Shown here piece after piece: positions 8,171-9,673 of a stretch of DNA of 64,000 nt (positions are counted from its first letter, which is position 1; every line of letters starts with the position of its first letter). This stretch comes from Melioribacter roseus. GTDB lineage: Bacteria; Bacteroidota; Ignavibacteria; Ignavibacteriales; Melioribacteraceae. A program made the translations under genes and the position numbers. The stretch spans positions 1-64,000 of the forward strand of contig DYHH01000006.1 in the NCBI GenBank assembly GCA_020724265.1, read 5' to 3'. The notes beneath the pieces were generated by a model. It saw only the letters and a program-made list of their open reading frames with translations, ran no database searches and was not told where the DNA came from.

Positions 8171-9673
8171 ATGAAATACTTCTTTTTCATTTTATTATTC
8201 TCACTGCAGATTGCTGCTCAATTAAATCTCACTATTCATACAGATAGTCCGGAGTATTCATACGGTGAAAAGATTCGAATAATCTGCACCCTTGAAAATA
8301 ACTCTGATTCAACCGTTACATTTTATGCAAGTAACTACAAATCTTGTCAAGCAGAATTTATTTTAAACGATATCGATTCTTACGAGTGGGGAACATGCTT
8401 GCCAACTGTCGAAGAATTGATTTTCCCTCCTTATAGCAATATTCAATATTCATGGACAATTGATCCGTACATTTTTGGATTGCCGGATAAAGACGGCATT
8501 CAAACTTTGGTAGGATATTTCAGACCAGGATGGAATTCATTCGATGTTTCACATCTGAAAGATACGACTACCTTTTATGCGCCAATGTTTTTAGGTGGTC
8601 AAATAATAATTAGTTATGATAGTGAGAACAAAGTAGAGATTGATAGCATTAAAATTCAGTACGACATCGAAGTGGTTATAAGTAGTTTATTAAATGATAC
8701 ATACACTGAAACATGGCAATTAAATGGAATGAAATTAGCCGAATACAAAACACTTTTTGAAAACACCGGTCTGTTTAGGTATGTAGATTATAATCGGAAT
8801 ATACTTTATGATAGAATATTCACACAGCAATCACCTGCTCAATTTTATCCGTTACAAATAGGGAATAAATGGTTATATAAAAATTCACTCTATGAAGTTG
8901 GAACAGAGCCGACAATAACTTACTTCAGTAAAGAAGTCATAGGCGATACTTTGATGGAAAACGGTAAGAACTATTTTGTTATTAAAGAGTGGGGCAATAT
9001 TTATTATGAAAGATTTGATTCAACGACAAACGAAATTATCAGATACATGGATTGGCAATGCGGAAAGATAGATAACCCAATATATAATCTGAATTATATA
9101 CCAAATGATACATTAGTATGGTGGTATTGTGATAGTTTAGGAAAACCTTATCAAGTTTTTTATGACGAAAGTCTTGGTCCGGATAGTTCATTTATTGAAT
9201 TAACAAGAGATGATTTACTGTCTGAAGAAATCGGTTTTAGAAAACATCTCGGACTTTTTTATAAATCAATTGGTGAAATCAGTTTAAGTACAACAGTTTT
9301 AATCGGTGCAGAAATTAACGGCAAAGTTTGGGGAACTTTAACTTCGGTTGATGAAAACGAAGAATTACTTTATGAGTTCTCATTACATCAAAATTATCCA
9401 AACCCTTTTAACCCAAGCACAACAATAAAGTTTACAGTGGGAACCCCACCCCGTCCCTCCCCTTACCAAGGGGAGGGAGAGAGGGAGGGGTTAGTCCTTC
9501 TCCGGATTTACGACATCCTCGGTCGTGAAATACAAACATTATTAAACAAACAAATGCAACCCGGCACTCACGAAGTAACATTCGATGCGAGCAATCTGCC
9601 GAGCGGAGTTTATTTCTATAGATTAACGAGCGGAAATTATTCGGCAACTAAAAAAATGCTATTACTCAGATGA
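8171..9673 (+). CDS. Secreted type IX cargo protein with C-terminal sorting domain
   Basis: This is a 500-residue protein with a short signal peptide (to about residue 17, IAAQ). The N-terminal region (LTIHTDSPEYSYGEKI...LENNSDSTV) resembles the BsuPI-type beta-sandwich. The middle is not recognised. Residues 403-500 are a type IX C-terminal sorting domain: QNYPNPFNPSTTIKF, then L-R-I-Y-D-I-L-G-R-E, GVYFYRLTSG and the terminal KKMLLLR. Residues 424-440 (GTPPRPSPYQGEGEREG) interrupt the domain and are encoded by a GC-rich palindrome unlike the rest of the gene. A GAGGGGG site precedes the ATG. The product should be carried across the outer membrane and anchored or released. Confidence 0.85.
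   Translation: MKYFFFILLFSLQIAAQLNLTIHTDSPEYSYGEKIRIICTLENNSDSTVTFYASNYKSCQAEFILNDIDSYEWGTCLPTVEELIFPPYSNIQYSWTIDPYIFGLPDKDGIQTLVGYFRPGWNSFDVSHLKDTTTFYAPMFLGGQIIISYDSENKVEIDSIKIQYDIEVVISSLLNDTYTETWQLNGMKLAEYKTLFENTGLFRYVDYNRNILYDRIFTQQSPAQFYPLQIGNKWLYKNSLYEVGTEPTITYFSKEVIGDTLMENGKNYFVIKEWGNIYYERFDSTTNEIIRYMDWQCGKIDNPIYNLNYIPNDTLVWWYCDSLGKPYQVFYDESLGPDSSFIELTRDDLLSEEIGFRKHLGLFYKSIGEISLSTTVLIGAEINGKVWGTLTSVDENEELLYEFSLHQNYPNPFNPSTTIKFTVGTPPRPSPYQGEGEREGLVLLRIYDILGREIQTLLNKQMQPGTHEVTFDASNLPSGVYFYRLTSGNYSATKKMLLLR
9440..9490 (+). repeat. GC-rich palindromic element inserted in frame in a sorting domain
   Basis: This 51-base stretch is far richer in G and C than the flanking AT-rich gene. Arms CCCTCCCCTT and AAGGGGAGGG pair perfectly around the loop ACC (about 9455-9477), and the outer AACCCC/GGGGTT blocks extend the imperfect hairpin to roughly 9443-9492. 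It keeps the reading frame and adds 17 residues to the sorting domain. The complementary strand is also open over it and would read TPPSLPPLGKGRDGVGF. Confidence 0.7.

Follow-up and report, generated by a model that had tools for sequence, protein, structure and literature searches.

A recurrent GC-rich palindrome in one loop of type IX sorting domains, probably a small mobile element of the Ignavibacteriales

A gene for a predicted secreted protein of Melioribacter roseus carries a GC-rich palindrome in frame inside its type IX sorting domain, raising the question of how such DNA came to lie within a coding sequence and whether it moves. The gene lies in a 64,000-nt stretch of contig DYHH01000006.1 (positions 1 to 64,000), here called the window. 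A preliminary description had proposed a dispersed palindromic element, conceptually similar to those of Rickettsia, using the sorting-domain loop as a landing site. Its reading of the locus itself holds: the element occupies 9441-9493, has a GC content of 66% against 34% for the window, and falls within a match to TIGR04183. The features of the locus are the following.

8171-9673, + strand: host gene of the element, coding for a 500-aa protein predicted to be secreted by the type IX system; open reading frame with TIGR04183 (E 2.3e-11) and PF18962 (E 2.3e-11) at the C-terminus
9395-9661, + strand: type IX sorting domain (Por_Secre_tail), 267 nt long where the modal length is 228, from alignment with 26 domains of the same genome
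9441-9493, + strand: palindromic element, 53 nt, in frame, encoding TPPRPSPYQGEGEREG; inverted repeat and covariance-model match G000:C39:9441-9493 (76.8 bits, E 1.4e-17, the window sequence being itself part of the model)
9454-9478, either strand: perfect core stem TCCCTCCCCTT / AAGGGGAGGGA with loop ACC, from sequence, fold and core search
9442-9447, either strand: outer left arm AACCCC, from fold and inverted-repeat analysis
9487-9492, either strand: outer right arm GGGGTT, from fold and inverted-repeat analysis

The C-terminus of the window protein matches the TIGR04183 profile over residues 409-497 and PF18962 over residues 409-496. Within this region, the DNA forms an imperfect inverted repeat (9442-9492) with arms at 9442-9462 and 9472-9492 that are 71% complementary, built around a perfect 11-bp core stem, TCCCTCCCCTT-ACC-AAGGGGAGGGA. 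The single-strand fold of the palindrome was calculated at -20.4 kcal/mol, compared with -12.6 ± 2.1 kcal/mol for dinucleotide shuffles (z = -3.7; none of 200 shuffles was as stable). The window contains the core once, where 0.09 occurrences are expected by chance with three mismatches allowed. By DNA span, the window sorting domain is the longest of the 121 in its genome, and the peptide read from the insert is GTPPRPSPYQGEGEREG. When the domain is modelled with AlphaFold2 (mean pLDDT 81), residues 16-32 form a low-confidence coil between strands 8-15 and 33-40, which would place the element in the turn connecting predicted strands one and two. A sequence search of the PDB returned weak matches only, among them a sorting-domain chain (8glj, E 0.7). 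The element had also been described as open on both strands, and an antisense frame, one of three over the element, does read through as TPPSLPPLGKGRDGVGF. Four of the six frames are open in all; however, shuffles of the element's own bases reach at least four open frames in about 72% of trials. Because these shuffles are equally open, the two-strand openness is no more than base composition yields and is not significant, and we rejected it as a sign of function.

By pattern and covariance-model searches, the 3.77-Mb genome of the window (G000) contains no second copy of the element; the window copy, in 1 of 121 sorting domains, is the only one, and the expectation of further copies in the same genome was thus disappointed. 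Copies at the same loop were found in related genomes. Our set comprised 146 genomes of the order, the window genome included (145 others). A search with the bare core CTCCCCTTNNNAAGGGGAG, allowing up to one mismatch and not trained on loop context, gave matches in 20 of the 146 genomes, counting that of the window; 46 copies lie outside the latter, in 19 of the 145 relatives. Of the core-pattern copies, 25, or 26 with the window copy, lie in sorting domains anchored on a PNPF motif upstream, including 6/6 in genome G032, 9/9 in G047 and 4/5 in G005, where the fifth copy (L082) follows an apparent frame-broken sorting-domain start.

A covariance model, R1, detected the window family in 65 of the 146 genomes, where hits to either strand of a palindrome were counted. 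We then placed 84 copies from five copy-rich genomes automatically, using an HMM built from the domains of the window genome: 60 (71%) fall in sorting domains, one in the 3' part of a type IX gene and 23 elsewhere, in a census that leans towards loop copies, on which R1 was trained. The core-pattern search, which is free of this training bias, still places more than half of the copies in the loop. The position is nearly invariant, with 48 of the 60 domain copies starting exactly 46 nt and seven starting 40 nt after the start of the domain; the other five belong to truncated domain matches. In G032, the covariance-model census puts 18 of 19 copies in sorting domains. Each copy-rich genome has 108 to at least 150 sorting domains, and since these amount to less than 1% of the genome DNA, the concentration of copies in their loop is extreme. 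Many of the relatives' genomes are fragmented assemblies, and copies L059, L087, L091, L094 and L277 lie at contig ends, as expected for repeats.

Outside the loop, the family was seen in several other settings. Copies L245, L252, L255, L287, L288, L291 and L292 are found no more than about 45 nt past the stop codons of type IX genes, a position commoner than intergenic chance would suggest. Two in-frame copies occur in one long restriction-methylation-like (methyltransferase-like) gene with an NPPY motif (L253:1501-1555 and 2367-2419), and the core palindrome stands in frame within a sugar-nucleotide dehydrogenase-like gene (SPLIKGREEAQGKGREKADVK; L063:1001-1019). At L291:804-877, L480 and L482, the hairpin loop of the element copy itself harbours, nested within it, different palindromes (TCCGCCAGAGGCGGA, CCTGCCAGACAGGCAGG).

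The recurring unit is 53-56 nt long, with the ends RACCYC...GRGGTY. Subfamily copies within one genome are 91-99% identical, whereas identity drops to 50-81% over the 9 nt adjoining each end, and flanks farther away are like those of any two sorting domains. This sharp drop beside the copies argues that the element reached domains that had already diverged, apparently spreading as a unit of its own. Close to loaded loops in G047, the third positions of codons agree at 0.47-0.49 among loaded genes versus 0.39-0.41 between loaded and empty ones; being hardly more alike, they argue that the domain was not copied whole. We rejected domain duplication and ordinary gene conversion as means of spread, the flanks being too diverged.

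The insert had been taken to add residues to the domain, which is true of the net gain of 39 nt over the modal domain of the genome, but the native four-residue turn is replaced and not just added to. In G047, the two strands are separated by five codons where the loop is empty; where it is loaded, the first of these is retained and the other four are replaced. Replacement extends somewhat further in G005 and G087. The element thus takes the place of about 14-15 nt of native turn, with 12-23 nt missing across insertions, a loss that is unexplained by ordinary transposition. The left boundary of one and the same 56-nt element differs between copies in G005 (L263-L265 versus L266). No target-site duplication is evident in the flanks of loop copies.

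Both orientations of the element, as had been suggested, are found in the relatives, even within single genomes: they occur at the same nucleotide in G047, where L069 and L073 are inverted, and in G109, where the SSPLLKGR copies L293-L297 are inverted and L243 and L497 are window-like. Copies in sorting domains use several reading frames, and their peptides vary (PSPYQGEG, PPLSKGR, LPLVRGG, TPLLSKERGRGEV, SSPLLKGR). These peptides are unrelated because frame and orientation vary, which argues that the peptide is not the conserved thing. One pair of the core stem changes on both sides, being T-A in 32 copies, C-G in 17 and T-G in one. Loop copies keep the palindrome, and the same insert encoded by non-palindromic DNA did not occur. 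The DNA hairpin, and not the peptide, is what is conserved.

The window copy is 92% identical to copies of another genus, and it represents a single arrival, most likely by transfer. The nearest relatives of the window gene share 36-47% of its protein, and no closer ortholog with an empty site was found. By eye, loop copies within one genome resemble each other more than they do the listed intergenic copies, a likeness that fits loop-to-loop copying as well as transposition.

The same loop also accommodates other repeats. The strongest inverted repeats in the 121 sorting domains of the window genome lie in it, and an unrelated GTAG-tagged palindrome family, GTAGTGGACGAAAATTTTCGTCCACTAC, has six of its seven copies in this genome (loci L165-L171) there:

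G000:C41:101919-101946, C40:26790, C5:239649, C15:13046, C41:92863 and C3:54400: loop copies of the GTAG-tagged family, in six genes
C39:154977: seventh copy, 36 nt after a sorting domain

Among relatives, 6 of 16 sampled copies of this family are in the loop and three in the 3' region of type IX genes. A same-genus pair comprises gene L516 of G003, which has the insert, and its partner in the window genome, which is 77% identical over the first 399 residues, is without the insert and carries another loop sequence. A third palindrome, AGAGACACAACATGTTGTGTCTCT, perfect over 24 nt, fills the loop of a domain of normal length (L044, G000:C34:7107-7334). The same loop in 12 of the 121 domains contains a non-palindromic 18-nt stretch, CAAGTAGCAAGTATC... 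(DNA CAAGTAGCAAGTATCRAGA, peptide QVASI), which on contigs C7, C43, C3 and C33 shows an identity of 0.98-1.0 between contigs, falling to 0.70 on its right. At C52:14507, C28:3675 and C14:7522 of the window genome, the loop contains yet another type of repeat, resembling AAACGTCAGACGTGAAG (SDVKSQTSDVKL). In G047, repeat-like inserts (QHQPRQGEGLTGAA, SHSEPSRG) are present in a second loop of the sorting domains, before PSGIYFY, at L066, L070 and L074.

Among known systems, the Rickettsia palindromic elements (RPEs) come closest in concept. Reviews describe them as short palindromes that interrupt functional genes without breaking the frame, and report a CGTC end for RPE-4 and RPE-6 (PMC3733652, PMC10969869); they occur in many unrelated genes and are about 150 bp long (PMC10969869). 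The window element is likewise a palindrome in frame in an otherwise intact open reading frame. It is set apart from published RPE descriptions by its length of 53-56 nt and its RACCYC/GRGGTY ends, without CGTC; by the placing of 60 of 84 copies in one domain type, with single cases elsewhere (L253, L063); and by its occurrence in a different group of bacteria. GTAG-tagged REPs are 20-40-bp palindromes with several families per genome and intragenic copies, often near RAYT genes, and a review stresses replication and repair genes as their hosts, the portions consulted not naming sorting domains (PMC3733652). The second palindrome family of the loop (GTAGTGGACGAA...), with its GTAG tag, fits the REPs, unlike the window element, which has neither a GTAG nor a CGTC end and, at 30 of 31 loci, is not found beside a Y1 gene. 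Y1/RAYT genes are present in 133 of the 146 genomes, whether or not the element is, and with the element near 1 of the 31 inspected Y1 loci (30 with 1.5-kb flanks and the one in the window genome), a RAYT as neighbouring mobiliser has little support.

MITEs resemble the element in small size, inverted-repeat ends, want of a transposase gene of its own and multiple dispersed copies; it differs from them in being GC-rich rather than AT-rich and in its recurrent coding target, and its loop-copy flanks show no evident target-site duplication. The core CCCTCCCCTTNNNAAGGGGAGGG also turns up frequently in genomes of cyanobacteria and some proteobacteria (L332-L411), and is identical in palindromes of Nostoc, Chamaesiphon, Tychonema and others, in a comparison of the core sequence. 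In searches of the openly accessible literature, no report of a palindrome or inverted repeat within a type IX sorting domain was found. We judge the element to be a variant of the Rickettsia type of protein-coding palindrome for which no earlier report was found.

Taken with the relatives, whose sequences support the earlier idea of a mobile palindrome, these data lead us to regard the window palindrome as a copy of a small non-autonomous mobile element that prefers one site in sorting domains, a reading to which we assign a probability of about 0.7. The hairpin-forming 53-56-nt element would spread as a discrete unit, its preferred site being the turn that links strands one and two of the type IX sorting domain, and insertion would replace about 14-15 nt of the native turn while keeping the frame. 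If the turn is an exposed coil, as the model hints, any peptide may be tolerated there, and sorting domains, at 100-150 copies per genome, could act as a renewable harbour. We speculate that movement proceeds via a single-stranded hairpin intermediate, as for REP elements. The copy positions show the site preference. The notion of a safe landing site stands in that the loop is used repeatedly, but tolerance alone does not explain the concentration, and some targeting or loop-to-loop copying is needed. A more tentative extension, which we rate as possible but somewhat doubtful, is that palindromes home to this one domain loop in a sequence-targeted manner, with conserved sorting-domain DNA guiding insertion and 100-150 paralogs harbouring several unrelated palindrome families.

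The main rival is short-patch recombination between loops, by which one ancestral insertion would have been copied between paralogous domains through short-patch gene conversion, or uptake of short DNA, without transposition. The shared boundaries in most genomes and families (offset 46), the homogeneous subfamilies within a genome and the exact loss of native turn codons, which resembles replacement, would all suit it, as would the QVASI stretch, also nearly identical between contigs and less so on its right side. Yet both flanks diverge from the first nucleotides, so that tracts would need to end within a few nucleotides each time, and both orientations at one site and the two left boundaries of a nearly identical element in G005 also speak against it; we consider this account unlikely.

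Much less probable still is indiscriminate insertion across the genome, after which copies would persist only where they are tolerated, the loop being the coding site that tolerates them best. The predicted coil, the intergenic copies, several of them just after stop codons of type IX genes, and the two copies in the methyltransferase-like gene would be expected under it; however, about 100-150 single positions per genome are a far smaller target than intergenic DNA, yet 18 of 19 copies in G032 are in domains, and 48 of 60 domain copies share one nucleotide offset. The counts inside and outside domains already contradict this explanation. We give equally little credence to a functional insert, in which a peptide or mRNA hairpin is selected for secretion or expression of type IX proteins. 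Such selection could account for the recurrent exact position and the covarying core pair, but not readily for peptides that vary by frame and orientation, for its absence from most domains of each genome (all but one of 121 in the window genome) or for members of the same family between genes.

Selfish DNA dwelling in genes has been regarded as rare and dispersed. In the present case, a single precise loop in a single family of domains houses the majority of an element's copies in several genomes, and is used by an unrelated palindrome family as well. With dozens of natural replicates, the spread of palindromes into coding DNA becomes testable. Where annotated sorting domains show stretches resembling PSPYQGEG or KGR, these are insertions at the DNA level rather than conserved motifs of the protein, and a secretion tag can gain a foreign peptide without apparent loss of the gene.
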